From positions 1 to 46,660 of IMG/VR virus record IMGVR_UViG_3300020055_000036: 46,660 nucleotides of DNA; one strand, given 5' to 3'. The position numbers and the translations under genes were made by a program. Each line of letters begins with the position of its first letter. Positions within the stretch are counted from its first letter, which is position 1. The DNA comes from a virus. Positions 1 through 35,545 of this stretch are shown here, in pieces. The notes below the pieces were generated by a model. The model ran no database searches. It was given only the letters and a program-made list of their open reading frames with translations, and was not told the origin of the DNA.

Positions 1-738
1 TCTATTGTTTCCGAATATACAGTAACGATAATTTTTGCCAGTATTATCAGACACCTTTAACTTTTCTTCTACAAACTTGCTTTTGTTTGCTTTTACTACG
101 TTTAAAATGTCTTCATCAATAAGCCATGCAGTGCTTTGTAGTTTATTAATAGCATTTACAAATGGCTCATTAAGTAGAGACTTGAACTCTTTATCTCTGT
201 CAAATCCCCAATGTTTAATGATGGGAAACCCGTTGTCCTGAAATAGTCGAGTAATAGGCTTTATAGGTTCAAACGTAGTATTTTGAATTAGCTCGTCAAT
301 TACTACGTCTGGTAAAGTTCCTATTTCTAACCATCGTTCTCCGGTTTCAATCATATAAGGTGCTCTGCTAAACGGACGCTTGCCTACTGGGTTATTTTCC
401 CAAGCGATCTGTGCTTCTGTTGGTGCACGGTAGATCTTAATATATCTACATTCATAAAAACCTTCAAGAACTAGATCTCCAAGCGTAACGTCTGCTCGAA
501 AACCTAGCTCTTGGCCGTTCTTCATAAATACGTTCTTACCGATAGCAACTGATGCCGCTGTAAGCTTGCATGTTGCAGACTCAGAGACAGAAGTTTTACG
601 AAAGTGGTATTGCAATACGGTAAGTGCATCATACACTAACTGCTTGATCGAGAGGTTGTGTTCCTTTACTAGCTTCACTGCCCAACGTTGGGGCGTTGAC
701 TCCACTTTCTGCTCCAGATAGTTTATTATCTCTTGCAT
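1..738 (-). CDS. T7-like single-subunit RNA polymerase, N-terminal part (3' end outside window)
   Basis: Open frame of 246 codons running off the left edge without a stop. It starts at an ATG preceded by GGAGAAAG. Residues near the edge (NKLQSTAWLIDEDIL) match the T7 RNA polymerase stretch around AINIAQNTAWKINKKVL, in the N-terminal domain that leads into the catalytic core. The preceding ~200 residues are mixed alpha/beta with no other recognisable domain. The catalytic palm and fingers lie outside the window, so activity cannot be judged here. If real, the enzyme would transcribe the phage genome from its own promoters, which fits the repeated GTGTCCCCTAT motif elsewhere in the window. It is the last visible gene of the leftward arm and overlaps the upstream GIY-YIG frame by 110 nt. 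The assignment rests on one short motif plus context. Confidence 0.72.
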   Translation of the reverse strand, partial: MQEIINYLEQKVESTPQRWAVKLVKEHNLSIKQLVYDALTVLQYHFRKTSVSESATCKLTAASVAIGKNVFMKNGQELGFRADVTLGDLVLEGFYECRYIKIYRAPTEAQIAWENNPVGKRPFSRAPYMIETGERWLEIGTLPDVVIDELIQNTTFEPIKPITRLFQDNGFPIIKHWGFDRDKEFKSLLNEPFVNAINKLQSTAWLIDEDILNVVKANKSKFVEEKLKVSDNTGKNYRYCIFGNNR

Positions 739-1087
739 TCTTTCTCCTCGTTCTGCGGTATGGATTGTGAGCTACATTATATAAGCTACAACCATGCCTT
801 AAGCAGCATTTAATTTCATGGGCTTCTACAATCAAAGCTTCTGCTTCAGTCATATTTCCACCCTTAATTTCTACAATTTCTTGTATTTCAAACTGTTCTA
901 ACTTTTCCAATAGCCATACATGATGGTCATATCCTCTATGAGTTATTTGAAATGGTCGATGAAGTGTACCTTTACCTACATATACTACGTCTAACGTTTC
1001 TGGATCTTTATGTACGTATACGCAATACATTTCTTCAGGATATTTAACTACTTCATCGGTACCTTCTCTTACTTTAATACTTCTCAA
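629..1087 (-). CDS. GIY-YIG nuclease-like protein
   Basis: Small protein whose N-terminal third carries a GIY-YIG-type core: YCVYVHKDP (first strand) and DVVYVGKGTLHRPFQ (second strand followed by the Arg-containing helix). This superfamily includes homing and repair endonucleases. The helical middle (MTEAEALIVEAHEI) contains a Glu-rich stretch that could supply the metal-binding Glu. No ATG opens the frame. A TTG at 1087 lies six bases after GGAG and is chosen here; an ATG at 1030, just before the domain, is the alternative. The start overlaps the dCMP deaminase stop, so translation is probably coupled. The 3' end runs 110 nt into the RNA polymerase gene, giving a Ser/Gly/Ala-rich tail unlikely to be part of the fold. 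It could be a free-standing homing nuclease or a resident phage nuclease. Confidence 0.62.
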   Translation of the reverse strand: MRSIKVREGTDEVVKYPEEMYCVYVHKDPETLDVVYVGKGTLHRPFQITHRGYDHHVWLLEKLEQFEIQEIVEIKGGNMTEAEALIVEAHEIKCCLRHGCSLYNVAHNPYRRTRRKNARDNKLSGAESGVNAPTLGSEASKGTQPLDQAVSV

Positions 1088-1493
1088 CTTCAACTCCGTT
1101 ATTTATAAGTAACAACAAAGCCTCTGGCTGATATGATTCTTTGAACACAACTCGTTTTATACGCGATTGAAGCAATAACTTAGTGCATTCAGTACACGGT
1201 GATAGAGTCGCATATAACGTGGCACCTTCCGACGACGCGTTTGATGTAGCCAATTTACAGATTGCGTTAGCTTCAGCATGAATTACTTCCCATTTAGTTG
1301 TGCCATCAGCATGGCGTGTTTCGTTTTGCATACCATGTGGTGTACCATTCCAGCCATAGCTTAAGATTTGGTTACCTTTTGCTATTACTGCTCCCACCTT
1401 ATGCTTCGCGTCATGAGACCGCCGAGAAACTAGCTCGGCGATACCCATGTATAGATCATCTTCTTTGATCCTGTTGTTTTTAAGCTTTCCCAT
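1074..1493 (-). CDS. deoxycytidylate (dCMP) deaminase
   Basis: 139 residues, a normal length for phage dCMP deaminases. The zinc-dependent deaminase signature is complete: H72-A-E74 and S-P-C100-T-E-C103 supply the zinc ligands and proton shuttle, and the substrate loop YGWNGTPHGM precedes them. The reaction is dCMP to dUMP, feeding thymidylate synthesis, in the cytoplasm. The ATG at 1493 follows AGGATAAT, and the gene starts three bases past the primase-helicase stop, so the two are probably co-translated. In context it belongs with the ThyA-fold enzyme, MazG and class II reductase as a nucleotide-pool module. It competes for the same dCMP that a dCMP hydroxymethylase would use, so the phage may balance both fates. 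Confidence 0.93.
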   Translation of the reverse strand: MGKLKNNRIKEDDLYMGIAELVSRRSHDAKHKVGAVIAKGNQILSYGWNGTPHGMQNETRHADGTTKWEVIHAEANAICKLATSNASSEGATLYATLSPCTECTKLLLQSRIKRVVFKESYQPEALLLLINNGVEVEKY

Positions 1494-4431: not shown

Positions 4432-4673
4432 TTAACTTCTACTCCCCATTCTCCTTTAGGCTGTAAGTCTTTCCGATATAACCACTCAGCTGGACACGTT
4501 AACGCGTCAAAACCTGGATTATAGTAAGAGCTATAACACTCTACTATTTTGGTTTTATCAGACTCGTATTCAGATTTAATTTTAGAAAACCAATCTTTAG
4601 TTTCCCAGTTATCTGGTATTGGGTGACAAGTATAATTAAACCCGTCACCGAATAAATTAATGGACGTCTGCAT
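4416..4673 (-). CDS. hypothetical protein (85 aa)
   Basis: The frame is open further upstream, but the ATG at 4673 has GGAGAAAGTT immediately before it and sits inside the last codons of the DNA polymerase gene (18 nt overlap), so it is preferred over the start at 4703. The product begins MQTSINLFGDGFNYTCH and has several Trp and Tyr residues (WETKDWFSKIKSEYE, PAEWLYRKDLQ) and three Cys. It looks globular with no membrane segment. I do not recognise the family. Its place between polymerase and exonuclease suggests an accessory role in replication, which is inference only. Confidence 0.7.
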   Translation of the reverse strand: MQTSINLFGDGFNYTCHPIPDNWETKDWFSKIKSEYESDKTKIVECYSSYYNPGFDALTCPAEWLYRKDLQPKGEWGVEVKWQSV

Positions 4674-6516
4674 AACTTTCTCCAATCTTATAGTCACCAC
4701 CATCCATACACATTACACCGAAATCTTTTGGTGCTTCACGAAAAGACTCTTGTAGTATTTCACCAACACGTTTAGCGTCTTTATCACTAGCAATATAAGC
4801 TATTTCGTCATGATAAAAGATAGCTGGATACGCGTCAAGTTTCTCATCATTAATCTTATTCATAGCATAGCTTGTAGCCGCTTTACAAGTAACGCCTTCT
4901 GCAGCTTGCAATAAATAATTAAGTACCTGATAATCACTACGCGCATACACCTTACGGCCGTCAAGACCTGGTATACATCCATATCGGTTATATATTTCTT
5001 TGAGTTTTTCGACCAACGAGCCGAATCCTGGTAAGTTAGCCATGAATGCAGCTCTGGCTTCTCGTCCTTTCTTTGCATCGCTTACTCCACACAGCGTTTG
5101 ACCAAGCTTTGCATCACCCGCACCAAAGAGAATAGCGTAAAGAAAAGACTTAGCCACGCTCCGATTGCAACCCAAAACACTAGCATTCCGTGAATGTTGA
5201 TCACCGTTAATGACAAGGTCGGTGTAATCGTTATTGCCGACGTAGTGACAAAGACCACGGAGCTGGTTGCCAGCACTGTCAGCGCCAACAACTCTATAAC
5301 CTGTCTCAGCAATAAAGAGTTCTCTAAGCATGCGACCATACGGAGCATCAACTGCCGGCAAGTTAACGATAACTTCATGACGACAGCGGAAACTTGGAGT
5401 ACCAACAGTCCACATCCTACCATGAAGTCTAGGATTATTTGATTCGTCATATTTAAGTCTCTCTAACCATGAGTTTATAGTAGCCGCACGGTTCTTAATA
5501 GTATAATATCTATCAACCAGTTTACCGATACGACCAAGCTTAGCCAATGATGTTGAAGTTAGCTTAGGTCCTGTGCGTACCCACTGACCAGTCGGTCCTT
5601 TCTTTACGTTCCAATCATCAGGTACCCAGCCTATTGTATACAACCACTCTTTTACCAGGTCCATGTTTGATAAAGTAACAGGTTCTATAGTAAACCGTTG
5701 AAACTCATCACCAGGCAGCACGGGTGGGCTGTCAGACACGGCCTCTTCAGCTAAGACGGTACGACCCAAGTATTCCGATAAGATACGAGTAGTTACGGCA
5801 GTATAGTAACCCGCTTTGGTATACTTTGCCGTCTTTGGTGTCTTATCAATAAATACTTTAGTAGTTCCAAGTTTTGGTTCTACAATTGACTCAATTTTAT
5901 TCATGTGTTTATGCATAACATTTAGATTATGCTTTGCACGATTCAAATCAAACAGCCAACCTTTCTTACGAACTTCAGACTCAAATATTCCAATATCATG
6001 TTCAACACGTAAGCCTTTCTTAATTAAGCTATTGTTTTCATTAGCCTTTTTAAGTTCTGCTAGTAAAACATGATACACTCTTGTATTTAACTGCACGTCT
6101 TGCGTACAGTATTCTAACATTTTTGGTGAGTAAATCTGCCAGCCTTGCTCATTGAATTCAGAGTTATCTTGTTTCTCGTAACCAAGATATTCACCCCAAC
6201 CACCAAGACCTTGCTTGTGAGGACGATCAAAGTCCAATACTTGCGACATAATCCATGTGTCGATCACAGTAGTTTTCGAAGACGGTTTCCAACCATAAAG
6301 CTTTTCCAACGCCATTAAATCAAAGCCAATAATATTATGACCAATTAAGGCATCAGCGGTTTCCATAAATTTCAAACCGGACTCTATAGACGGTAAACCA
6401 GGCTGATCAGCGTATCTATAAATCTTTTCTGTCACAGCATCTTGACATACAAGTACGTGACAAACGGTCATCTCCTCCAAGAGACCATTAGTTTCTATAT
6501 CAAATACTAATTGCAT
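4657..6516 (-). CDS. family A DNA polymerase, T7 gp5-like
   Basis: 619 residues (T7 gp5 is 704). The 3'-5' exonuclease domain is present: VFDIETNGL (ExoI), IGHNIIGFDLMAL (ExoII) and YCTQDVQLN (ExoIII). Polymerase motif A is GADSAGNQLR with D413 as metal ligand; motif B is RSVAKSFLYAILFGAG with Tyr at the position of T7 Tyr526 / E. coli Phe762; motif C is FYHDEIAY. Motif A carries Gln (about residue 418) where T7 and E. coli have the Glu that helps exclude ribonucleotides. AAAGGATTGCT precedes the ATG. It replicates the phage genome with the primase-helicase and SSB; whether it uses thioredoxin as processivity factor cannot be read here. Tyr at the 762 position has been linked to virulent phage lifestyles. 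Confidence 0.96.
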   Translation of the reverse strand: MQLVFDIETNGLLEEMTVCHVLVCQDAVTEKIYRYADQPGLPSIESGLKFMETADALIGHNIIGFDLMALEKLYGWKPSSKTTVIDTWIMSQVLDFDRPHKQGLGGWGEYLGYEKQDNSEFNEQGWQIYSPKMLEYCTQDVQLNTRVYHVLLAELKKANENNSLIKKGLRVEHDIGIFESEVRKKGWLFDLNRAKHNLNVMHKHMNKIESIVEPKLGTTKVFIDKTPKTAKYTKAGYYTAVTTRILSEYLGRTVLAEEAVSDSPPVLPGDEFQRFTIEPVTLSNMDLVKEWLYTIGWVPDDWNVKKGPTGQWVRTGPKLTSTSLAKLGRIGKLVDRYYTIKNRAATINSWLERLKYDESNNPRLHGRMWTVGTPSFRCRHEVIVNLPAVDAPYGRMLRELFIAETGYRVVGADSAGNQLRGLCHYVGNNDYTDLVINGDQHSRNASVLGCNRSVAKSFLYAILFGAGDAKLGQTLCGVSDAKKGREARAAFMANLPGFGSLVEKLKEIYNRYGCIPGLDGRKVYARSDYQVLNYLLQAAEGVTCKAATSYAMNKINDEKLDAYPAIFYHDEIAYIASDKDAKRVGEILQESFREAPKDFGVMCMDGGDYKIGESYADVH

Positions 6517-6729: not shown

Positions 6730-7158
6730 CTATAAGAAGTCAGCAGTATCTCCATGATTACCTTTGTGGTCAGGTCCTTGCCAATTAGCAGGCTTTATCA
6801 AATCCGGTAAGCCAAACGGATTAGGACGGCTAGCCTTGACTCCGGGTTCTTTGGCCATATTAGCGGCATGAACTTGCCTCCAAGCGTGGTCTGCGTCCAC
6901 TCCCAGTATATCAAGCGTACCAATGGCAATAACACACATGTCAATAAGACCATCGATAATCTCTTCTGCGTCTTTATTAACAAAAGCTTCACGTGTTTCA
7001 TTGAGTTCTTCCTCTAAAAAGTTAATGCGAAAAGCTAGAAACTGGTTTAGTACGTTATATTCTTGATCGAACTGTTTAAACGCCAACCATTCATGAACGC
7101 CAAACTTTTCATGCATTTCATGAATGTCTTTTACCCATGTACTTGTTCTTTTAGCCAA
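6730..7158 (-). CDS. MazG-like nucleotide pyrophosphohydrolase
   Basis: 142 residues, all-alpha. The MazG/dUTPase-like metal motif is visible as FLEEELNETREAF followed by KDAEEIIDGLIDMCVIAIGTL, giving the ExxE...ExxD arrangement. The C-terminal tail (KASRPNPFGLPDLIKP) is common in phage members that resemble phosphoribosyl-ATP pyrophosphohydrolases. It probably hydrolyses dNTPs or non-canonical nucleotides to monophosphates. In this cluster it could lower dCTP or supply dCMP for modification, which is inference. The gene overlaps the upstream 167-residue gene by 28 nt. No good ribosome-binding site was picked out beyond the coupled overlap. Confidence 0.82.
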   Translation of the reverse strand: MAKRTSTWVKDIHEMHEKFGVHEWLAFKQFDQEYNVLNQFLAFRINFLEEELNETREAFVNKDAEEIIDGLIDMCVIAIGTLDILGVDADHAWRQVHAANMAKEPGVKASRPNPFGLPDLIKPANWQGPDHKGNHGDTADFL

Positions 7159-7634
7159 TGCGGTATCTCCCTTTCTTTATATTTTGCAAATCTAATTTTA
7201 TCTCGTTTATAGAAACCACGATAAGCATTTACAGGCCAGAACTCGTCTGTCTTCAAGTCATCGTGACCACTAAAACATTGTGGATGCTGAGTTAAAGGAC
7301 CTTGCGGTACTAAAACGTTTGCATGCTTTAACAAAAGACGGTGCTTACCTGCTCCGTGTTGTTTACCGTATCTAAAAGTATACTCCTTTAGCATAGCATC
7401 GTACAATCTCCAAGCCCAACGGTAATTAGCTCTTGTTTCACCAGCCCACTTAGTACATGGATGGTTCTTATGTACTGCACGATACAGTTCTCGCTGTTTA
7501 GCAAAACCAGGAGCGTGAAGATGCAAGACGGTACAAAGCATTTGAGCCTCTTCCAACGGCATCTTTACAATATGTTTGTCACATAGTTGCTGAGCAATCG
7601 CGTCAGGTTCTATGTCGATAATAAACCTATTCAT
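7131..7634 (-). CDS. conserved phage-type protein of unknown function (167 aa)
   Basis: The sequence begins with a strand ending in CDKHIVKMPLEEAQMLCTV, a pattern I have seen in hypothetical proteins of many tailed phages, and is rich in conserved-looking Trp, Tyr, His and Arg (NHPCTKWAGETRANYRWAW, then LTQHPQCF and VNAYRGFYKRDK). The spread of charged and aromatic residues suggests an enzyme or nucleic-acid-binding protein, but I cannot name a reaction. AAAGGGAAAAG precedes the ATG. The start overlaps the stop of the upstream 38-residue membrane peptide, and the end overlaps MazG. Its position between MazG and the ThyA-like enzyme hints at a nucleotide-related job. Confidence 0.75.
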   Translation of the reverse strand: MNRFIIDIEPDAIAQQLCDKHIVKMPLEEAQMLCTVLHLHAPGFAKQRELYRAVHKNHPCTKWAGETRANYRWAWRLYDAMLKEYTFRYGKQHGAGKHRLLLKHANVLVPQGPLTQHPQCFSGHDDLKTDEFWPVNAYRGFYKRDKIRFAKYKEREIPHWLKEQVHG

Positions 7635-7743
7635 CTTTTCCCTTTCTGAAACGATGTTTAAAGAAAACTATCAAGTTTAGAAACGTATTGATGGTTACCA
7701 TAAGCAGCAACCACCAATGCGTCCATGACTCTAATAAGTCCAT
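7627..7743 (-). CDS. small single-span membrane peptide (38 aa)
   Basis: Short frame exactly filling the gap between the ThyA-like gene and the 167-residue gene. Its ATG overlaps the TAA of the first (TAATG) and its stop lies inside the start of the second. The product has one hydrophobic segment (WWLLLMVTINTFLNLIVFF) followed by a basic tail (KHRFRKGKDE), giving an N-out, C-in single-span prediction. One of several tiny membrane peptides in the leftward arm. Function unknown; possibly modulation of host membrane proteins. Confidence 0.62.
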   Translation of the reverse strand: MDLLESWTHWWLLLMVTINTFLNLIVFFKHRFRKGKDE

Positions 7744-8426
7744 TAAAGGTTTTTCTCACACCACTCTTTTACATGATGAAAATGTCGTGGATAAATGTGA
7801 AGGCTTTGAGCTTGCCAAAAGATGTCACCAACACTAAGGTCAAGGTCAGTGGCCAATCTTTCTAGAACTCTTACTTGCCAATACTTGTCATTAAGATAGC
7901 CAAAAACTGCGTCATTACTTCTCATTTGAACTACGCAATTAAGATAGTTATCATTGTCAATGTAATAAGTAACAGCGTTTGTACAGCAAAAGTCGTTGAT
8001 ACCATCTTTACGGTAATCAACATGCATAGACGGTCTTTGATAAATCATTGAAGCACGTCTACTATTTGGATTAGTTTTTAGTTCTCGTAATACATTATCG
8101 TATTGAGATCCGTTTTCTTTACTGTAAACCATCCAACCGTAGTTAGAGTTTATATCACCACGACTATTTGCCGCATGAGTTTTCCAAATTACAGGTACTT
8201 TGCCGTATAAATCTTGAAGACGGTTTACATTACACTCTTGCGTATCATACCAATCACATTCAGCTATTTGATATGCCACGTTAGGCTCGCCAAAAATAGA
8301 GTCTCTGTTCGCTATAAAAGAGGCTCCTATAATTTCAAGCATATTTTCTTTATGTCGTTCATGCTCATTGTGCATGTACATAATTGCAAAAGTTTTTCTA
8401 ACGTCTCCTACATTATTCGTAATCAT
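7743..8426 (-). CDS. ThyA-fold enzyme, predicted dCMP hydroxymethylase
   Basis: 227 residues of the thymidylate synthase / dCMP hydroxymethylase fold. Visible: paired Arg R123-R124 for phosphate binding; catalytic Cys in NDFCCTNAV (C148); the VVQMRSNDAVFG strand equivalent to QLYQRSxDxxLG; and SLHIYPRH equivalent to THLYSNH. At the position of E. coli ThyA Asn177, which selects the uracil ring, the protein has Asp (D180, in YLNDKYW). That substitution defines T4-type dCMP hydroxymethylases. The likely reaction is therefore dCMP plus methylene-THF to 5-hydroxymethyl-dCMP. A plain thymidylate synthase cannot be excluded. The ATG follows GAAGAGATTTATA. A predicted glycosyltransferase and an Nmad1-like gene lie immediately upstream, supporting a role in DNA base modification. 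Confidence 0.82.
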   Translation of the reverse strand: MITNNVGDVRKTFAIMYMHNEHERHKENMLEIIGASFIANRDSIFGEPNVAYQIAECDWYDTQECNVNRLQDLYGKVPVIWKTHAANSRGDINSNYGWMVYSKENGSQYDNVLRELKTNPNSRRASMIYQRPSMHVDYRKDGINDFCCTNAVTYYIDNDNYLNCVVQMRSNDAVFGYLNDKYWQVRVLERLATDLDLSVGDIFWQAQSLHIYPRHFHHVKEWCEKNL

Positions 8427-8604
8427 TATAAATCTCTTCCACTTCGTTGTAGGTAAATGTTACATCTTGTATCAAGTCTTCGATTGTAGCATAAGCAGAC
8501 CATAGATCTGCTTGTACTCCTTCATGATCGATGCGCTCAATAGAGTCAAGTCCCATCTTTAAATGTCTTATTAGCTTAAGTATAAAAGCTTTATCATCAT
8601 CCAT
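8413..8604 (-). CDS. hypothetical helical protein (63 aa)
   Basis: The start at 8604 (MDDDKAFILKLIRHL) overlaps the stop of the glycosyltransferase, fitting the coupled style of this operon. An in-frame ATG at 8631 would extend it into that gene. It is predicted all-helical and acidic, with regularly spaced hydrophobic residues (LKMGLDSIERI, AYATIEDLIQDVTF) and an acidic end (EVEEIYNDYE). No family recognised. It lies between the glycosyltransferase and ThyA-like genes and ends inside the latter's start region. Confidence 0.62.
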   Translation of the reverse strand: MDDDKAFILKLIRHLKMGLDSIERIDHEGVQADLWSAYATIEDLIQDVTFTYNEVEEIYNDYE

Positions 8605-9529
8605 TTTCTTGAAGTTCCTTTCTCTTTTCATTAGCTATCTTTTGTAGCTCTTTTGCGCGTGCTTTTGTTGGTGCGCCAAGCTCTGCTCTAAGACGGTCTT
8701 CCATTTCTAACAAGACGGTTTTCTCATGAGGCCATAGCTTGCCAAGACGGATAGTCAACGCCGCTTTCTTAGTGCCCTTTTCCCAGCCATCTTTCCAACG
8801 TAATGTAGCGCAGTCAGACCACACTTCAGCAAATCTTTCCATGCCTTTGTTGTGATTATCTGTAGTGCGAGTTGTAGCACAGCCACCTGCTGCTTGTGTC
8901 TTATTACCTGCACTAGCAAACTTATTCATGTTAAGTACAGGATATCCGGCCTTTACCATTTGACATTGAATATGAAAATCTTCAGGCAAAAACTCGTCTT
9001 CTTGCCATTGTTCTCCAATCCAGTCATAGTTATGTGGGTTTATTACGCTAAAATCAAACCAAGTATTAGTGTACACACGAGAATTAACACCACCAGGAAA
9101 ATCGCTAATCCCAGCCGGAGAGATTCTCTGTCCAAGTCCTCCAACTCTGAAGCCGACGTCACACGCGGTTTGAATATCTTTAAACAAAACATTCCAATCT
9201 TCCTCTTCCATGGCGGTAAATTTCAAAAAAGGCCATGACCCGTCCATGCCGTCATCTTTAGCCTTACAAAATGTTAAGTCATCATCCATTTGCCATTGAA
9301 TAAACTCCATACCGAGCTCTTTGGCTGCCCACTCACGTCGTTTAGCGATCCCTCGAACCTCGTCAGGACATGCCTTTACATTACAGATAGATCCATACCG
9401 TTCCATATGAGCATCGTACTCTTCGGGATAAACCAGCAGAGTCGTAATATTTTGTATAGTCTTTGGCATTTGAGACAGAGTAACTTGATTATCTACTCTG
9501 CCTCTTGTAAAAATTACTGGTGTTATCAT
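8597..9529 (-). CDS. GT-A-type glycosyltransferase, TAGT-like (predicted DNA-base glycosylation)
   Basis: 310 residues from the ATG at 9529, which has a perfect AGGAGG eight bases upstream; the longer frame to 9598 lacks this. The N-terminus (MITPVIFTRGRVDNQVTL) followed by Arg-rich GIAKRREWAAKELG and the metal-binding MDDDLTFCK triad looks like the TET-associated glycosyltransferase (TAGT) group of GT-A enzymes. A further acidic motif EDEFLPEDFHIQCQM and a His/Asn-rich stretch (TRTTDNHNKGMERF) resemble that family's C-terminal half. TAGT proteins are proposed to add sugars to hydroxymethylated bases in phage DNA. With the predicted dCMP hydroxymethylase downstream, it would glycosylate 5hmC. 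The family call is from memory of motif order and needs a profile search. Confidence 0.72.
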   Translation of the reverse strand: MITPVIFTRGRVDNQVTLSQMPKTIQNITTLLVYPEEYDAHMERYGSICNVKACPDEVRGIAKRREWAAKELGMEFIQWQMDDDLTFCKAKDDGMDGSWPFLKFTAMEEEDWNVLFKDIQTACDVGFRVGGLGQRISPAGISDFPGGVNSRVYTNTWFDFSVINPHNYDWIGEQWQEDEFLPEDFHIQCQMVKAGYPVLNMNKFASAGNKTQAAGGCATTRTTDNHNKGMERFAEVWSDCATLRWKDGWEKGTKKAALTIRLGKLWPHEKTVLLEMEDRLRAELGAPTKARAKELQKIANEKRKELQENG

Positions 9530-9636
9530 TAGTACAGTCCTCCTGGAATTAAATAGAAGTCTACTAGAACCATAAGAAGGCCAATTAGAATTCCCCATGC
9601 AGCTGTGTTAATTGCTTTTAAGACTTTAATGTACAT
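9529..9636 (-). CDS. small single-span membrane peptide (35 aa)
   Basis: The ATG follows AAAGGAATAAGTA and overlaps the TAA of the Nmad1-like gene; its own TAA overlaps the glycosyltransferase ATG (TAATG at both ends). The product is one amphipathic lead-in (MYIKVLKAINTAAW) and one hydrophobic span (GILIGLLMVLVDFYLI). The tight junctions and good ribosome-binding site make it likely to be translated. Function unknown. Confidence 0.65.
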   Translation of the reverse strand: MYIKVLKAINTAAWGILIGLLMVLVDFYLIPGGLY

Positions 9637-10082
9637 TACTTATTCCTTTCCATCCATACGATAGCTCTTGCTGCGTAGTTAATCAAGTCTCGTAAACAGT
9701 CGTCAGCAGTATCAAAGTTTACTGAACCTTTCTGTTCCATGACTGATCTAAACCGCAACACTTTAGTTGTTAGCATAGTATCAAAACTGCGCCAACCATG
9801 AGGATAATAGTCATCATCCTTTACTGAACCTCCTTGATAATCTACTCCCTTACTAGCCATAAGAGAGCCACACTCTTCAAGCACTTCAATTGCGCGCTCG
9901 TAATAGCTATCTTCATCATCAAGACGGTCAAGCTCATGAAACGTTTCCGTAAGAAAATCGCTGTCATCTTCATAAGCTGCTTCGAGTAAATCACTCAACG
10001 ATTCTGCTTTCTTAGCCATTTTATCGTCTTCCTCTCTCATTCTTCGTAACATATACGCATAGTATCTCTCATTATCAGTCAT
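9636..10082 (-). CDS. Nmad1-like (DUF1599) nucleotide-modification-associated protein
   Basis: The start at 10082 (MTDNERYYAYMLRRM) is chosen because it overlaps the end of the upstream gene; the frame extends further but out of context. 148 residues. The first half is acidic and helical. The second half (KGVDYQGGSVKDDDYYPHG, MLTTKVLRFRSVMEQKG, CLRDLINYAARAIVWM) has the layout of the DUF1599 family, renamed nucleotide modification associated domain 1. Its biochemical activity is unknown to me; in phages it often sits with nucleotide metabolism and DNA-modification genes. Here it is two genes upstream of a TAGT-like glycosyltransferase and close to a predicted dCMP hydroxymethylase, the expected neighbourhood. 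The family call is from recall. Confidence 0.62.
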   Translation of the reverse strand: MTDNERYYAYMLRRMREEDDKMAKKAESLSDLLEAAYEDDSDFLTETFHELDRLDDEDSYYERAIEVLEECGSLMASKGVDYQGGSVKDDDYYPHGWRSFDTMLTTKVLRFRSVMEQKGSVNFDTADDCLRDLINYAARAIVWMERNK

Positions 10083-10727: not shown

Positions 10728-10982
10728 TTATGGATACCTTGTCTCCTGCATCAATCTCTTTAGATACCATTCGCATTTCTCCAAGTCTTCTATGCCGCCT
10801 TTATAACGGAAACGCCACAGATATTTCAATGCGTTGCCATGAAGATAAAACTCGAAACCTTCATCTTGCTCAAGACAAGCAGCAATCGCATCAATACACT
10901 CAATACTACCTTGATTGTAATGAGCAGGACTATTTACCATATCTGGCTTATCTTCTTCCTCGTCTAATAGCTTATTAAACAT
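10728..10982 (-). CDS. DUF3310 family protein
   Basis: 84 residues from an ATG at 10982 preceded by GAGGAGGGTCTCG and overlapping the end of the upstream gene by 8 nt. The DUF3310 signature is clear: VNSPAHYNQGSIECIDAI near the start and GNALKYLWRFRYKGGIEDL at the end, followed by a helix EKCEWYLKRLM. DUF3310 proteins are widespread in tailed phages and are sometimes called nucleotide-kinase-like, but no activity is firmly established. The neighbourhood is nucleotide metabolism, consistent with such a role. Confidence 0.88.
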   Translation of the reverse strand: MFNKLLDEEEDKPDMVNSPAHYNQGSIECIDAIAACLEQDEGFEFYLHGNALKYLWRFRYKGGIEDLEKCEWYLKRLMQETRYP

Positions 10983-11394
10983 CGAGACCCTCCTCATTAA
11001 ACATCTCTCTTACTACTTCATCTGCTCGTTCCATGGAATGATCTACAAGCTCTTCCCGCATCTCTTCGGTCCAATCATAACTATGCTCTAACTGATCAAG
11101 CAAACTATCTCGTACTTCTTCTTGAACCTGCTCATAAGCTGCAGTCACAGCATCTCTAGCCTCACTTACAGCAGCATCAATACTATAACTAAAGTCGTTC
11201 CTTATACACTCTTCTACATTCAACATTGCAGACTCGATAACCATGTACTCATGATCTTGAATTGCTGAAGTCATACTATGTATACAGTCACGGTAAGCGT
11301 TAGCCGCTTCATGGTTATCCTCTTTGTTTGCTACTTCTATCCATCTCTCGATTTGACTAATAACAGGATTCATTACATTTCTTAGAACATTCAT
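10975..11394 (-). CDS. hypothetical acidic helical protein (139 aa)
   Basis: First gene downstream of the leftward promoter-like motif at 11474-11487. The ATG at 11394 is preceded by GAGAAAGGAATAGTAAC. The product is nearly all helix and strongly acidic (VNEP-poor, Glu/Asp-rich): IERWIEVANKEDNHEAANAY, then AVTAAYEQVQEEVRDSLLDQ and SMERADEVVREMFNEE. It has coiled-coil character without a membrane span. No family recognised. As the lead gene of the metabolic/replication operon it may be an early regulator or host-interaction protein. Confidence 0.68.
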   Translation of the reverse strand: MNVLRNVMNPVISQIERWIEVANKEDNHEAANAYRDCIHSMTSAIQDHEYMVIESAMLNVEECIRNDFSYSIDAAVSEARDAVTAAYEQVQEEVRDSLLDQLEHSYDWTEEMREELVDHSMERADEVVREMFNEEGLDV

Positions 11395-17852: not shown

Positions 17853-20011
17853 TGGCCGACCCGATGGGATACAAAGAGCCTATTACAGACGAACAATTAA
17901 TTAATCTTATTGAAAGCGGAGTTCAAAACTCTACAGGAGATTGGTTAAACTCTTCTGACTTGGCTCGTGAAAGACTGAAAGCTACTTACGAATATGCAGG
18001 AGTAGCTGATGCACATTTAACTCCACAAGGAGTCTCGTCAATTGTAGATACCTCAACTACTGAAGTTATTGAGGCTTACACAGCTATATTATCAGATCTG
18101 TTTTTGAATAATCAAAAGCTTGCGCGCTTCGTGCCATACGACGATAGTCCTGGCGCGTTTAAAGCTGCGAAAGATGCTTCTGCTATAACTAACTATTGCT
18201 TATTTAAGAAGAATAATGGTTGGGAACTTATGCAACAGTGGATGAAGTCTGCGTTGCTTTGGAAAAATGCAGTTTGTAGATGGGACTATGTTGAAGATTA
18301 CGATTATGCATTTGAAGAATACGAAGAAATAAGTCAAGCTAAATTAGACGAATTACTTTCTGACGACAACATTGAAATAATCGGTGAACTTCAGTTTGAA
18401 AACGTTACACGTATTGACGAACAAACAGGTGAAGACGCTGTTGAGCTAATGTACGTTGATGTGCGAGTTAGAAAAACAATAAATAATTCTCGCGTAAAAG
18501 TAGAGCTTATTCCACCAGAAAATTTTAGAATTTCTAGAGATTGTCAAAGTATTGATGAGTCGCAGTTTGTAGGTATTCAAACAGACATGACTCGTTCTGA
18601 AATACGAAAGTATTGGCCAGAAGTAGCAGAGTCTATTGAAAGCTGGGACGAGCTAGGACACAGTGATAGCTGGTTAGGAGCATCTAAATACGCTCAAGAT
18701 GTTGCAGCTAGAAAACATGTTGTCGGACAAGAATATTGGCAGGGATCTACGCAGCACGAAATTATGCCGTTAGAGGCAAACAGAGAAGTTACTGTTACTG
18801 AGTGCTGGTTGAGAGTTGATCGTGATGGCGACGGTATAGCTGAGCTTAAGAGGTTTATTGTTGTTGGAAGTCATATACTATATGAAGAAGATACAGACGT
18901 TATTCCGCTGGCCTCTATCGTTCCATTCGATATTCCACACGAATTTTATGGCCTATCAATGGCAGACTTTACTAGAAGCTCTACTCTTGCTTCTACTGCT
19001 ATTTTACGCGGCTTTGTAGAAAATACATATTTAACTAATTATTCGCCTAAGTTGGCTGATCCAAACGTAGTAGATTTTTCTGCTCTTCAAAATATGAAGC
19101 CAAAGCAGATTATTCCTACTAATGGTAACCCAACTGGCGCAGTTCAAACCTTATCACCAGAAGCTATTTCTACCGGGACTGTTCCGCTGTTGACTCACTT
19201 GCAGTTAATAAAAGAACAAGCTACTGGTATGTCAAAAGCTGCTCAAGGTTTGAACGATACATTATACGTTTCAGGTAACTCTGAACAAAAACTTTCCGCT
19301 GTCCAATCCGCAGCCCAGAAGCGCATTCAACATATTGCGCGGCGATTTGCAGAGACAGGCTTTAAGCGGTTAATTGCTGGCATCTACGAAACCATGCATA
19401 AGAATATGAAAGGAAAATATACTTACAATCTTGATGGCGTATATGGTTCAGTAGATATGGACGCACTTCCTTCTAAGATGGACGTACAGATTTTCTTGGA
19501 CATTGGCGAAAATTCTAATATGTCAATGATTAACAAGTTATCTAAGATTGGTGCAGAAGTTCTGCCAGCTCTCAATCAGCAAGGCGCTGGCATGGTTATT
19601 AAAAGAGAGGCACCAGCAGTTCTTGCTACGAAGCTTATTGAAGCTATGAACTTAGACAGTAATGACTTTTTAGAAGATTATACTACTGACGAGTTTAAGC
19701 AAAAAGCTATGCAAGCTGTAGAACAGCAAAGTAAGATGGCTCAAATGACAAAAGAAATAGAACAACAAAAGGCTCAGGCTGATGTTCAACTTTCTCAAGC
19801 TAATGTAGCCTATACTACTGCTCAAGCTAGAAATACTATGGAAGATAACGCAAGAGCGCTTGCAGTATCTATTGATAAGCATTTCCAAGAGTGGGCGGAT
19901 CTTACTATTAAAGCAACAAAAGAAGGCGCTCAAATGCCGCCACATCCGGGCTTTGATGAAATACTTCAAATGGCTCAAGGCATTATGATGGCCGCTGAAA
20001 AACAAGGATGA
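17852..20011 (+). CDS. portal protein (P22/SIO1-type head-tail connector)
   Basis: 719 residues, very close to P22 gp1 (725). The N-terminal region (DEQLINLIESGVQNSTGDW, then a helical MQQWMKSALLWKNAVCRWDY) and the central wing/stem region (PFDIPHEFYGLSMADFTRS, LRGFVENTYLTNYSPKLAD) match P22-like portals. The C-terminus is a long Gln-rich coiled coil (QQSKMAQMTKEIEQQKAQAD), as in the P22 barrel region. A dodecamer of this protein forms the vertex through which terminase packages DNA. GGGAGGTAAATACTG precedes the ATG. No truncation seen. Confidence 0.88.
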   Translation: MADPMGYKEPITDEQLINLIESGVQNSTGDWLNSSDLARERLKATYEYAGVADAHLTPQGVSSIVDTSTTEVIEAYTAILSDLFLNNQKLARFVPYDDSPGAFKAAKDASAITNYCLFKKNNGWELMQQWMKSALLWKNAVCRWDYVEDYDYAFEEYEEISQAKLDELLSDDNIEIIGELQFENVTRIDEQTGEDAVELMYVDVRVRKTINNSRVKVELIPPENFRISRDCQSIDESQFVGIQTDMTRSEIRKYWPEVAESIESWDELGHSDSWLGASKYAQDVAARKHVVGQEYWQGSTQHEIMPLEANREVTVTECWLRVDRDGDGIAELKRFIVVGSHILYEEDTDVIPLASIVPFDIPHEFYGLSMADFTRSSTLASTAILRGFVENTYLTNYSPKLADPNVVDFSALQNMKPKQIIPTNGNPTGAVQTLSPEAISTGTVPLLTHLQLIKEQATGMSKAAQGLNDTLYVSGNSEQKLSAVQSAAQKRIQHIARRFAETGFKRLIAGIYETMHKNMKGKYTYNLDGVYGSVDMDALPSKMDVQIFLDIGENSNMSMINKLSKIGAEVLPALNQQGAGMVIKREAPAVLATKLIEAMNLDSNDFLEDYTTDEFKQKAMQAVEQQSKMAQMTKEIEQQKAQADVQLSQANVAYTTAQARNTMEDNARALAVSIDKHFQEWADLTIKATKEGAQMPPHPGFDEILQMAQGIMMAAEKQG

Positions 20012-20014
20012 TAA

Positions 20015-20353
20015 ATGGATAAATACCGTAAGGCAGCCGAGAAGAGGCTGGGTAATAATAAATCATACGGTAGACATAAGGTTCATCCCGACGAATTGGC
20101 GCGATTGGCTCATACTAAGGGTCATTTCGCTGCCAAAGAGCGGGACGAATTTTTTGAAGAAGCGTATGGTGAAGTTTTAGTGGAATATTTTATTGAATGG
20201 TTAAAGACAGATCCTCATGAGACAAAGACTCGAGAGTTTCTGTATTCAGCCGCTATGGCTTTAGGTAGTGTAAAAGAAAAGCTAATAAGCTTTGAGACCT
20301 ATGGTAAAAATATTCCACATCTAATGGAGGACGACGAAGATGAGAACAATTGA
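20015..20353 (+). CDS. hypothetical protein (112 aa)
   Basis: Starts four bases after the portal stop. Basic N-terminus (KYRKAAEKRLGNNKSYGRHK), then helices (ERDEFFEEAYGEVLVEYFIE, REFLYSAAMALGSVKEKL) and an acidic end (HLMEDDEDENN). Lying between portal and scaffold, it may be an assembly cofactor. No family recognised. Confidence 0.68.
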   Translation: MDKYRKAAEKRLGNNKSYGRHKVHPDELARLAHTKGHFAAKERDEFFEEAYGEVLVEYFIEWLKTDPHETKTREFLYSAAMALGSVKEKLISFETYGKNIPHLMEDDEDENN

Positions 20354-20555
20354 TAATGAAAAGCTACTTAAGAATGTTACTGATATGATTAATCTTCTTG
20401 AGTATGACTCAATGCGTAGTAGCGGCAAAGCTAAAATTAACGCCGCTAATTTACGAGATTTAATTGAATTGCAAAAACATTATACTGCAAAAATTAATTC
20501 TAGTAAGCAACCTGTAGCAGCTAAAGTAGTTGCTAAGAAAAAGGAGGCTAAATAG
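20340..20555 (+). CDS. hypothetical protein (71 aa)
   Basis: The ATG lies in the end of the previous gene with GGAGGACGACGAAG upstream. An N-terminal helical part (MRTIDNEKLLKNVTDMINLL) is followed by LRDLIELQKHYTAKI and a Lys/Ala-rich tail ending AKKKEAK. The same Ala/Lys tail style closes the scaffold protein that follows. No family recognised. Confidence 0.65.
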   Translation: MRTIDNEKLLKNVTDMINLLEYDSMRSSGKAKINAANLRDLIELQKHYTAKINSSKQPVAAKVVAKKKEAK

Positions 20556-20557
20556 AT

Positions 20558-21658
20558 ATGGCTGAAGCACAAACAGACTCTACCCAGTTGGATGACTCTG
20601 TAGCTACAGATAGTCAAACTGAAGCATCTCTTCTGGATAACATTATGCGGAACACATCGTTCCTTGATGCAGAATCTTTACCCGAGCAGGAAGAGGTACC
20701 TCAAATAGACACGGAAGAATCTGACGAAGAAGTACCCGAAGCGTCAGAGGAAGACGATACTGAAGAAGTTGAAGAGGAAGTAGAAGACGAAGAAGATGAT
20801 ACCGCTGATGAGGATGCCGACGATGAGTCCGCTACCCAAGAAGCAGAGGTTTATTCTACTGACGATCTTGACTTGGAGGCTAAAGTAGTTGTTAAAATAG
20901 ACGGCGAAGATACGGAAGTTTCCTTTGGTGACCTTATTAAAGGTTACTCTACTGAACAACATCTATCAAAGAAGGGTCGTGAACTCGGTGATGCAAGACA
21001 GGAGATGGAGCAAGAGTACCAACAAAAGTTGGAACAAATCGAAAGTATTACTCAAGCTTCAGCAGCTGTCCTATATTCTGACGAACAAAAGTTTGCGAAA
21101 GAATACCACGATCTCGAGGCTAAAATTGAAAAAGCCCGAGAAGAAGGCGATAATTATGAACTAAGTGAGCTTAAAGATAAGCGTGAACAGGTTCAGAAAA
21201 ATTATTGGACTTCTAGAAATAATCGCGAAGAGCTTATGAAGCAGGTAGAACAAAACGTTCAAAAGCAAAGTGAGCAAATGTGGCAGGAACAAATCGACTA
21301 TTTTAATGAGACTATTCCTTCACTAATTCCAGACTTTAGTGAAGATACCGCAAAATCTATCAGGCAATTTGCCTTAGATGAAGGTATTTCTGCAGAAGTT
21401 TTAGACGCGATTGCAGATCCTATGATTGTAAAGTTTGTTGACGATTACAGACGCCTAAAACAAGGTGTAAGTAAAGGCGCAGCTAAACGTAAAACAGTCG
21501 TAGCTAAGAAGGCGCCTTTAAAGAAGTCAAAGCCGGCTGCTAAAAAGAAACAAGCAGCTAGCGAAAGAACTCGAGATAGGGTGCTTAGTGGTAACGCAGA
21601 CGAATCAGAACAAATGGACTTTCTCCGTGGCCTTGCAGAACGCTCTTTAAATCTTTAG
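20558..21658 (+). CDS. scaffolding protein
   Basis: 366 residues immediately upstream of the capsid gene, the usual place for scaffold. The first ~110 residues are extremely acidic (EESDEEVPEASEEDDTEEVE). A small globular segment follows (VVVKIDGEDTEVSFGDLIKG), then a long charged coiled coil (QEMEQEYQQKLEQIESITQA, NREELMKQVEQNVQKQSEQ) and a basic C-terminal tail (AKRKTVVAKKAPLKKSKPAA). Basic C-termini of scaffolds bind the capsid protein during procapsid assembly. AAGGAGGCTAAATAGAT precedes the ATG. Identification is by composition and position. Confidence 0.8.
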   Translation: MAEAQTDSTQLDDSVATDSQTEASLLDNIMRNTSFLDAESLPEQEEVPQIDTEESDEEVPEASEEDDTEEVEEEVEDEEDDTADEDADDESATQEAEVYSTDDLDLEAKVVVKIDGEDTEVSFGDLIKGYSTEQHLSKKGRELGDARQEMEQEYQQKLEQIESITQASAAVLYSDEQKFAKEYHDLEAKIEKAREEGDNYELSELKDKREQVQKNYWTSRNNREELMKQVEQNVQKQSEQMWQEQIDYFNETIPSLIPDFSEDTAKSIRQFALDEGISAEVLDAIADPMIVKFVDDYRRLKQGVSKGAAKRKTVVAKKAPLKKSKPAAKKKQAASERTRDRVLSGNADESEQMDFLRGLAERSLNL

Positions 21659-33808: not shown

Positions 33809-35545
33809 ATGCACAACATAGAATACATAGGCCCGGAGACCTCACTCTCCCAAGAAATAGATAAGATGAAGTATAGGCAAGAAAACGAAACGTTTGACGA
33901 AAAGATTAAGCGCATTGCAAAAGCCTTAAGTGATGGTGAAGAACATAGATACCAATTAGAAGATATTCTTGGCAACATGAGATTTTTACCTGCTGGTAGA
34001 GTTCAAGCCGCTATTGGATCTAATCGTATCACTACTGCCTATAACTGTTTTGTATCTGGTGAAATTGAAGACAGTATGAATAGTATAATGGAGAAAGCCA
34101 GTGAAGCAGCTGAGACTATGCGTAGAGGAGGTGGTATCGGTTATGACTTCTCTAAAATCCGCCCACGTGGTGACAGGATTAAATCACTTGATAGCCAGTC
34201 GTCGGGGCCGGTTAGTTTTATGGGCATATTTGATGCTGTATGCCAAACCATCGCGAGTTCGGGACATCGGCGAGGTGCACAGATGGGCGTTCTTAGGGTT
34301 GACCATCCGGATATTGAGGAGTTCGTTGCTGCTAAACGTAATTCTGACAAGCTTACTGGTTTTAATGTTAGTGTAGGTATAACAGATGAGTTTATGGAGG
34401 CCTTAACAAATGATGGCGACGACTCTTTTACATTGCGCTTCAATGGTATCGAACACAAGATCATTTCTGCAAAAACATTGTGGGAAGAAATCATGTCGTC
34501 GACTTGGGATTGGGCGGAACCTGGTGTGTTGTTTATTGACCGCATTGCGGAGATGAATAACCTTCACTATTGTGAAACTATATCTGCAACCAACCCTTGT
34601 GGTGAGCAACCTTTGCCTCCGTATGGAGCGTGTTTATTAGGAAGTTTTAATTTAACAAAGTATGTAGGAGACTCTACATTTGACTTTAATAAATTTAAGA
34701 AAGATATTGCGGAAGTTGTACGAGCAATGGACAACGTTATTGACCGTACGATTTACCCGCTTAAAGAACAATCAGACGAAGCAAAGAACAAACGCCGTAT
34801 GGGACTTGGAGTTACAGGGCTTGCCAATGCTGGCGAGTTATTGGGATACGAGTATGCTTCAGAAGAATTTATGGAATGGGCAGAGTCCGTCTTTGTTTCT
34901 CTCAGAGATAGCTGCTATAGAGCTTCAGCAAGACTCGCTAAGGAAAAAGGTCCATTCCCACTATACAGAGAAGAATATTTAAAGTCTAACTTTATTCGTA
35001 CTTTACCCGCATCTATTAAAAAGGAGATACGTGAATATGGTATACGCAACAGCCACCTAACTAGTATTGCACCTACTGGTACTATTAGTATCGTAGCTGA
35101 TAACGTAAGTGGTGGTATCGAACCTGTGTTTAGTCACTATTATGATAGAACAATTCAAACATTTGAAGGTCCTATTGTAGAAAGAGTGGAGGATTATGCG
35201 TATGCTAGAGGTATAAAAGGAAGAACAGCAAATGACATTTCAGTTCAGGATCATTTAGCTGTTTTGCTTTTAGCTCAACACTACATTGATTCTGCTTGTT
35301 CAAAGACTTGCAATGTAGGAGAAGACGTATCGTATGAAGAGTTTAAACAGGTTTACTTGGATGCCTGGAAAGGCGGGGCGAAAGGATGTACGACGTTCAG
35401 ACTTGGTGGAAAAAGGTTTGGCATCATGCAAGCCGTGGAAGAGGAAGAGACGAGTACTGGCGAGACTGCGGAAATGGCTGAAGAAACGGGAAAGGCAGAG
35501 GCTTGCTTTATCGACCCGACAACTGGCCATAAAGAGTGCGCATGA
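33809..35545 (+). CDS. nrdJ: class II (adenosylcobalamin-dependent) ribonucleotide reductase
   Basis: 578 residues, short for the family, without an N-terminal ATP cone. Core motifs: LPAGRVQAAIGSNRITTAYN with the first redox Cys in NCFVSG; METAL-independent dimer region RRGGGIGYDFSKIRPRG; active-site NPCGEQPLPPYGAC (about residues 261-274) with the thiyl Cys and Glu; phosphate loop SIAPTGTISI (about 418); and a C-terminal Cys pair (EACFIDPTTGHKECA) for re-reduction. The short length and PTGTISIVADNVSGGIEP favour class II, which uses B12 rather than a small subunit; no NrdB gene is seen. It makes deoxynucleotides for phage DNA synthesis. B12-dependent reductases mark marine cobaviruses. Has its own promoter-like motif. 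Confidence 0.9.
   Translation: MHNIEYIGPETSLSQEIDKMKYRQENETFDEKIKRIAKALSDGEEHRYQLEDILGNMRFLPAGRVQAAIGSNRITTAYNCFVSGEIEDSMNSIMEKASEAAETMRRGGGIGYDFSKIRPRGDRIKSLDSQSSGPVSFMGIFDAVCQTIASSGHRRGAQMGVLRVDHPDIEEFVAAKRNSDKLTGFNVSVGITDEFMEALTNDGDDSFTLRFNGIEHKIISAKTLWEEIMSSTWDWAEPGVLFIDRIAEMNNLHYCETISATNPCGEQPLPPYGACLLGSFNLTKYVGDSTFDFNKFKKDIAEVVRAMDNVIDRTIYPLKEQSDEAKNKRRMGLGVTGLANAGELLGYEYASEEFMEWAESVFVSLRDSCYRASARLAKEKGPFPLYREEYLKSNFIRTLPASIKKEIREYGIRNSHLTSIAPTGTISIVADNVSGGIEPVFSHYYDRTIQTFEGPIVERVEDYAYARGIKGRTANDISVQDHLAVLLLAQHYIDSACSKTCNVGEDVSYEEFKQVYLDAWKGGAKGCTTFRLGGKRFGIMQAVEEEETSTGETAEMAEETGKAEACFIDPTTGHKECA

Follow-up and report, generated by a model that had tools for sequence, protein, structure and literature searches.

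The window, i.e. the whole 46,660-nt stretch of DNA analysed here (IMG/VR record IMGVR_UViG_3300020055_000036), represents an incomplete genome of a marine phage, whose nearest kin are the CRP-7-type roseophages. It encodes polA, a gp4-type primase-helicase, a gp2.5-type SSB and a T7-type RNA polymerase, the gene of which is truncated at the left edge, so the label of a T7-like phage given in the first-pass annotation is fair. CRP-7, the nearest isolate (terminase 56%, portal and capsid 54%, primase 48%), shares the genome plan and an AdoCbl-type ribonucleotide reductase with the window phage, but has no match to its hydroxymethylase, TAGT, Nmad1-like protein or MazG, and the MazG of CRP-7 belongs to another family (PF03819). 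The phage collection contained no sequence nearly identical to the window, and no exact match was found that extended its right end.

The genes of interest are compiled in Table 1. The three open reading frames from which a cytosine-hypermodification cassette had been proposed are indeed located there, all on the minus strand. The gene block Nmad1-TAGT-hydroxymethylase-MazG-polA is kept in at least four relatives, including one with a complete 58-kb genome, the TAGT proteins being 68-83% identical, and the TAGT gene adjoins the hydroxymethylase gene in every relative whose sequence spans both.

Table 1. Features of the window discussed in the text
Product	Coordinates	Strand	Remarks
dCMP deaminase	1074..1493	-	would compete for dCMP; in relatives, no match in CRP-7
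T7-type DNA polymerase A	4657..6516	-	downstream border of block; would use modified dCTP
MazG-like/PRA-PH all-alpha NTP pyrophosphohydrolase	6730..7158	-	TTG start; PF01503 6.4e-9; candidate dCTPase
Pyrimidine-dimer DNA glycosylase-like protein (PF03013)	7131..7634	-	variable passenger of block
dCMP hydroxymethylase, T4 gp42 family, 227 aa	7743..8426	-	T4 gp42 4.8e-56; full signature
Small 72-aa ORF	8413..8631	-	between glycosyltransferase and hydroxymethylase genes; closest relatives only
TAGT-family GT-A DNA glycosyltransferase	8597..9598	-	PF20691 1.3e-13; likely true start 9529 (310 aa)
DUF1599/Nmad1-related protein	9636..10082	-	constant dCMP hydroxymethylase partner; predicted to act on nucleotide pool
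DUF3310 protein (domain of T7 gp1.7 nucleotide kinase)	10728..10997	-	also in CRP-7; putative kinase

Hydroxymethylase and glycosyltransferase

The top PDB matches of the thymidylate synthase (TS)-fold protein in a phmmer search were the structures of T4 dCMP hydroxymethylase, whereas ordinary thymidylate synthases scored far more weakly (8.6e-12 at best); the latter assignment, named in the first-pass annotation as evidence against its proposal, did not arise. In the alignment, D180 of the window protein corresponds to the cytosine-selecting D179 of T4 and C148 to the catalytic Cys, and the equivalents of E60, S94, Y96, D145, C148 and D179 are complete. The signature of hydroxymethylating enzymes consists of an Asp three residues ahead of the Cys, plus Ser94 and Tyr96 (PMC6400193), and is unchanged in 194 of 195 aligned sequences. 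The full S94/Y96/D145/C148/D179 set, along with the position next to T4 gp42 in the tree (47-51% identity), settles the assignment of this protein to the gp42-type dCMP hydroxymethylases.

The neighboring glycosyltransferase exceeds the cut-off of the TAGT family clearly (PF20691, 51.8 bits against 27.5) and matches phrog_842 with an E-value of 5.8e-30, while a sequence search of the PDB gave no match at E-values up to 10. Its DDD motif (D105-D106-D107), which had been recognized from the beginning as TAGT-like, is invariant across 23 homologues, and its predicted model is confident (pLDDT 86) with GT-A structural matches reaching a Z-score of 13.9. Sequence and model together thus classify it as a TAGT-family GT-A glycosyltransferase. 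An AGGAGG ribosome-binding site precedes the Met at residue 24, and residues 1-22 are modelled with low confidence, which indicates that translation probably starts at 9529 rather than at 9598.

The namesake context of the TAGT family is a TET/JBP dioxygenase, whereas the partner in the window is a hydroxymethylase acting at the nucleotide level, as in T2/T6. No TET/JBP gene was found in the window or the complete relative, the control being positive; membership rests on the PF20691 score, and the Pfam model does not demand such a partner. Among 19 distant TAGT contigs, a TET/JBP gene was present in six, a TS-fold gene in 13, and both in none. Pairs of adjacent TAGT and gp42-type genes also occur in T2, S16, KP179 and AB2I3. 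Note that the TAGT tree does not resolve the window clade next to either the TET-linked or the T-even groups.

Putative helper genes for nucleotide supply

The synthesis of hydroxymethylcytosine (hmC) in T4 depends on a dedicated dCTPase and a dedicated kinase. The gap left by these enzymes, already pointed out in the first-pass annotation, proved to be real, as no homologue of either the gp56 dCTPase or the gp1 kinase was found in the window, its extension or the complete relative, while T4-like controls were positive. Of the two gap-fillers suggested at that stage, MazG remains a good candidate for the dCTPase, whereas the 167-residue protein drops out as a kinase candidate: its score of 25.2 bits against Pyr_excise (PF03013) exceeds the cut-off of 23, it also hits phrog_624, and PF03013 proteins are present in the blocks of L074/L031 but missing from those of L033, L034 and G001.

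The metal motif EExxE...DxxxD of MazG (E50, E51, E54, D69, D73) is invariant in 59 homologues, and the gene is conserved within the block of relatives. Moreover, gp56 is encoded on none of 16 hydroxymethylase contigs carrying an Nmad1-like gene, but on seven of 13 without one, which argues for MazG as the likely dCTPase. The two small helper genes appear to replace at least one of the two helper enzymes of T4. With regard to the kinase, members of the thymidylate kinase family are absent from the window, the complete relative and the sister phages, and the only convincing P-loop among the early gene products is that of the helicase. The DUF3310 protein is a possible kinase, since this domain is tied to the nucleotide kinase gp1.7 of T7 (PMC10700055).

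The second putative helper, the Nmad1-like protein, matches DUF1599 (PF07659) with an E-value of 0.003, but its 18.3 bits fall short of the 25 demanded by Pfam, while a homologue in L085 exceeds this value with 27.3 bits. The relatedness to DUF1599/Nmad1 predicted earlier is therefore retained, but by its own score the protein is no formal member of the Pfam family. Its gene lies beside a dCMP hydroxymethylase gene in all 39 non-redundant viral loci, which usually also carry a MazG closely related to that of the window; conversely, hydroxymethylase loci with full flanks contain the Nmad1-like gene in 24 and MazG in 22 of 29 cases. These counts make the Nmad1-like protein a constant companion of dCMP hydroxymethylase, and phrog_18404 even unites MazG and Nmad1 regions within one family. 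Profile comparisons revealed no homology to DUF3310 or MazG, so that a kinase function finds no support in the sequence, and the AlphaFold model is unusable (pLDDT 55). Regarding the gene as a plain replacement of gp56 or gp1 is too simple, because phage Muldoon carries it together with both. More speculatively, and rather unlikely in our estimate, the protein may represent an unrecognised P-loop-less enzyme, either a kinase of 5-substituted dCMP or one that channels this compound toward the triphosphate by another route; together with a MazG dCTPase, it would form a compact two-gene substitute for gp1 and gp56, enabling many unrelated phages to replace cytosine. A search of genome contigs for the gene yielded only two metagenome-assembled genomes and was of no use for host prediction.

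Predicted pathway and alternative readings

The proposed cytosine-hypermodification cassette is supported by profile searches and trees as well as by the active-site residues and the conserved order of the genes, and we consider it probable that cytosine is replaced before replication and sugar-capped afterwards by the combined action of hydroxymethylase, MazG, polymerase, TAGT and the Nmad1-like partner. MazG would break dCTP down to dCMP, so that ordinary dCTP is cleared from the pool and substrate is supplied to the hydroxymethylase, which is expected from its homology and full signature to convert dCMP and methylene-tetrahydrofolate to hydroxymethyl-dCMP. Some kinase of host or phage would generate the triphosphate, and the T7-type polymerase would incorporate it into DNA. 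TAGT would then move one sugar from a host nucleotide-sugar directly onto hmC, a single step proposed for want of a second detectable DNA glucosyltransferase in the phage. Linkage and the fused family suggest that the Nmad1-like protein acts with MazG on the nucleotide pool as a dedicated partner of dCMP-modifying enzymes. Our best prediction for the phage DNA is hmC bearing one TAGT-added sugar, which may shield it against host restriction and CRISPR nucleases, as in T4-type phages.

There is a small chance that TAGT instead attaches a second sugar, or follows another glycosyltransferase, yielding a disaccharide as in T6. Homologues of the T2/T6 type are annotated as beta-glucosyl-HMC-alpha-glucosyltransferases, and TAGT probably adds the second glucose onto alpha-glucose in T6-like phages (PMC13390438), which keeps its direct action on hmC a prediction for the window clade. 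However, neither a beta-GT (PF09198; T4 and S16 controls positive) nor another glycosyltransferase was found among the annotated or sampled uncharacterised proteins of the complete relative. Replacement may also be partial, since no T4-type nuclease for host DNA was identified in the phage. An only partial incorporation of hmC, in which the sugars added by TAGT at scattered sites would act as a signal instead of giving full protection, would fit the lack of an identified kinase, gp56 and such a nuclease, but is very unlikely given that the conserved MazG with its intact metal site suggests dCTP removal, and that the contigs enriched by MetaGPA, which carry these domains too, were fully modified (PMC8670742).

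We see hardly any room for a TS-fold enzyme yielding 5-hydroxy-dCMP or 5-methyl-dCMP instead of 5-hydroxymethyl-dCMP. The exchange of Asn for Asp at D180, taken in the first-pass annotation as the mark of T4-type hydroxymethylases, led to the correct enzyme but is not defining by itself, as the same Asp occurs in the TS-like protein of RB69, whose Mosigvirus family produces 5-hydroxy-dCMP (PMC13390438). PaMx28, AXL_1 and Kolga (gp35) likewise have it in their TS-fold proteins. The hydroxymethyl signature is incomplete in all four (T94/E145 in RB69, N145 in PaMx28 and AXL_1, I94/L145 in Kolga, whose enzyme is perhaps a dCMP methylase), whereas the window protein has S94, Y96 and D145 in place and clusters with T4 gp42. 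Equally remote is a glycosyltransferase acting on host surface polysaccharide or protein and located in the operon by coincidence: GT-A folds serve many acceptors, and the closest structural matches of the model are protein or polysaccharide glycosyltransferases, but PF20691 membership, the fact that TAGT genes of unrelated contigs are paired exclusively with those of hydroxymethylating enzymes, either TET or TS-fold, and the constant position of TAGT beside the hydroxymethylase gene in the relatives argue against it.

Comparison with other phages

Formation of hmC at the nucleotide level is textbook T4 biology. The window phage shares with T4, T2 and T6 (Straboviridae) the gp42-family enzyme with its full signature, with T4 a dCMP deaminase, and with T2, S16 and KP179 a TAGT gene adjoining gp42. 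While T4, T2 and T6 use gp1 and gp56, it carries MazG and the Nmad1-like protein; it further differs by lacking a detectable beta-GT, by its T7-type DNA and RNA polymerases, a genome of ~58 kb and its marine origin. This phage and many environmental relatives thus possess a hydroxymethylase without detectable gp56 or gp1, which narrows the question of hmC synthesis in other phages to two small named proteins. The DUF1599 family, hitherto just "modification-associated", gains dCMP derivatives as its expected substrate class, and TAGT becomes a candidate single-step tool to label hmC in DNA.

Similar gene sets are known from cytosine-modified contigs recovered by MetaGPA, on which TS, PRA-PH and dCMP-deaminase domains co-occur with a carbamoyltransferase (PMC8670742). 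As in the window phage, each genome combines a TS-fold enzyme, a PRA-PH/MazG-like enzyme and a dCMP deaminase, but the decorating enzyme is the carbamoyltransferase instead of TAGT, and the main text of that paper does not name an Nmad1-like partner. In the cultured Pelagibacter phage Kolga EXVC016S, no TAGT was present among the proteins checked, while gp36, gp35 and gp34 encode an Nmad1-like protein, the TS-fold enzyme and a MazG of the window type in a row.

The dCMP hydroxymethylase and similar TS-fold proteins

All three frames named in the first-pass annotation were found on the minus strand. T4 gp42, the dCMP hydroxymethylase of T4, is the top PDB match of the ThyA-fold protein (4.8e-56), with ordinary thymidylate synthases following at 1e-11 or worse. 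Because Pfam reaches only the superfamily level (PF00303), it is the residues and the tree position that carry the assignment. Ser94, Tyr96 and an Asp three positions ahead of the catalytic Cys make up the hydroxymethylase signature, and cytosine is selected by Asp179 (PMC6400193); the window enzyme and four relatives show the complete signature and Asp179, as do 194 of 195 aligned sequences. Phylogenetically, the window clade is the sister of the T4-type gp42 group, while the RB69 protein and the dUMP-type enzymes fall elsewhere. As judged from these concordant sequence features, the protein is a T4-type dCMP hydroxymethylase, as previously proposed.

Features of the cassette region
Feature	Position	Strand	Length (aa)	Basis
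MazG-like PRA-PH enzyme, adjoins polA	6730-7158			profile match
Pyr_excise-matching protein	7131-7634		167	Pyr_excise match
T4-type dCMP hydroxymethylase	7743-8426	-	227	PDB match, signature residues, tree
TAGT-family glycosyltransferase	8597-9598	-		PF20691, phrog_842, GT-A model
DUF1599-related (Nmad1-like) protein	9636-10082	-	148	sub-threshold DUF1599 match
DUF3310 protein	10728-10997			domain shared with T7 gp1.7

The residue originally taken as decisive, D180, indeed corresponds to T4 D179, but Asp by itself is not diagnostic. It also occurs in the TS-like protein of RB69 (5-hydroxy-dCMP is made by Mosigvirus; PMC13390438), in the TS-fold proteins of PaMx28 and AXL_1 (with N at 145), and in Kolga gp35 (with I94/L145). 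The hydroxymethyl residues are missing from the latter three proteins, which may be dCMP methylases. Pelagibacter phage Kolga EXVC016S, a cultured SAR11 phage, encodes Nmad1-like, TS-fold and MazG proteins consecutively (gp36-gp34), and its candidate methylase would possibly give 5mC. In PaMx28 and AXL_1, a gene for a nucleotide pyrophosphohydrolase that matches the Nmad1-like protein adjoins the TS-fold gene (Asp179, Asn145), dCMP deaminase and DHFR; the gene annotated as thymidylate synthase possibly codes for a dCMP-modifying enzyme instead.

The TAGT glycosyltransferase and the predicted sugar

Profile searches confirmed the proposed TAGT family membership of the glycosyltransferase (PF20691, 51.8 bits against a cut-off of 27.5; phrog_842, 5.8e-30), and its DDD motif is present and invariant. 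The top structural matches of a model built from 23 homologues (pLDDT 86) are GT-A enzymes, e.g. GalNAc-T2 (Z 13.9, rmsd 4.6, 230 residues). The true start is likely at 9529, given the AGGAGG upstream of Met24 and the low model confidence of residues 1-22 (pLDDT < 50).

TAGT directly adjoins gp42 in T2, S16, KP179 and AB2I3. In a set of 19 distant contigs with TAGT, TET/JBP is found in six and a TS-fold gene in the other 13, the two never occurring together, indicating that TAGT accompanies whichever enzyme makes the hydroxymethyl group. All eight distinct TAGT-paired TS-fold genes checked code for Asn at 179 and D145 and look like dUMP hydroxymethylases, which suggests glycosylated-hydroxymethyluracil phages (L042, L055, L057, L059, L061, L062, L066, L068). 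The window contains a dCMP-type enzyme, no TET and no beta-GT (controls matched), and no other glycosyltransferase turned up among the annotated proteins and a sample of the unknown proteins of the complete relative G001; the simplest reading is thus that TAGT would add a single sugar directly to hydroxymethylcytosine (hmC). Six sister phages (polA 75-77%; L167:7755-8594, L165, L170, L173, L174, L182) carry the Nmad1-like, hydroxymethylase and MazG genes, and TAGT had no match in them. A SAM-methyltransferase-like gene (PF13489) immediately precedes MazG in these phages and perhaps represents an alternative hmC decoration.

Nucleotide supply and the Nmad1-like protein

T4 requires the dCTPase gp56 and the kinase gp1. 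As noted before, neither is evident here: no gp56 or gp1 was found in the window, the near-identical contig L017 or the complete relative G001, while T4-like controls matched. The 167-residue protein, of unknown identity in the first-pass annotation and considered there a possible partial gap-filler, matches Pyr_excise instead. The predicted DUF1599 relationship of the Nmad1-like protein holds, but its score stays below the Pfam threshold, which is exceeded by the family member from L085.

Both the Nmad1-like family and the hydroxymethylase served as queries against IMG/VR, and in the best 80 loci of each, a sample leaning to window-like sequences, a dCMP hydroxymethylase occurs at all 39 non-redundant Nmad1-like loci (at most 1 kb away in 32), and of the hydroxymethylase loci flanked by 2.5 kb or more in both directions, 24/29 contain an Nmad1-like gene and 22/29 a window-type MazG. 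No gp56 was detected in large Nmad1-positive contigs (0/16 vs. 7/13 Nmad1-negative ones; Fisher p 0.001, in a test ignoring relatedness, with three of the seven gp56 contigs looking like near-copies and several contigs being fragments), and a search of 17 large contigs for gp1 gave no match. A 2013 paper reportedly named Nmad and TAGT, so some link between Nmad1 and modification is surely known already; its almost one-to-one association with dCMP hydroxymethylase and its complementarity with gp56 are new to our knowledge. MetaGPA recovered TS, PRA-PH and dCMP-deaminase domains together with a carbamoyltransferase on cytosine-modified contigs (PMC8670742); the window shares the same TS/PRA-PH/dCMP-deaminase set, which provides independent experimental support for this class of module, and the main text of that study contains neither the Nmad1 partner nor TAGT.

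MazG, whose metal motif is intact in 59/59 relatives, is the best dCTPase candidate. In Pamexvirus and Bosavirus, MazG and Nmad1-like functions are linked: a single family, phrog_18404, holds both regions, and its gene adjoins those for the TS-fold protein, dCMP deaminase and DHFR. The Nmad1-like protein does not detectably resemble DUF3310 or MazG, and about 11 residues are invariant across 69 relatives, as expected of an enzyme. Since Muldoon carries it beside both gp1 and gp56, it is no plain substitute for either; it may act as a kinase for 5-substituted dCMP, as a specificity partner of MazG, or as a MazG-hydroxymethylase scaffold. The DUF3310 protein is a further putative kinase, because T7 gp1.7 contains this domain (PMC10700055), which also occurs in Roseobacter phage CRP-7 and is therefore not cassette-specific.

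The phage and its relatives

The window, a linear fragment of a virus, begins inside a T7-type RNA polymerase gene (1-738, minus strand), which is truncated by its left edge. The whole gene is found at L017:9373-11736, on a contig with 99.6% identity to the window across 10.1 kb; beyond it follow three small ORFs and an opposing structural gene, so the early region is seen in full. The nearest isolate is CRP-7 (terminase 56%, portal 54%), a podovirus of the RCA Roseobacter lineage (PMC6918029), in which the cassette has no match. G001 (58,114 bp with a 55-bp terminal repeat; regarded as complete) shares synteny with the window and contains, in order, Nmad1-like, TAGT (69%), hydroxymethylase (61%), MazG (58%) and polA (77%). 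This order is kept in L030/L074, L031, L033 and L034, with the Pyr_excise gene and a 72-aa ORF variably present. Between hydroxymethylase and MazG, the place of the Pyr_excise gene is taken by a DUF932 protein in L071:19885-20000 plus L072:1-838 (G001 19885-20838), and L185 has a weak DUF932 match close to its Nmad1-like gene.

The late region of G001 (50977-57381) contains about ten ORFs of similar size, near 160-240 aa, one matching a tail fibre family. The window also encodes an AdoCbl-dependent ribonucleotide reductase (33809-35545, plus strand; TIGR02504, above cut-off) and a conserved protein (629-1093, minus strand; 70% in G001) that looks GIY-YIG-like by eye and has no Pfam or PHROG matches. 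GATC occurs 160 times over the whole window against 133 expected, a count reached by none of 100 shuffles.
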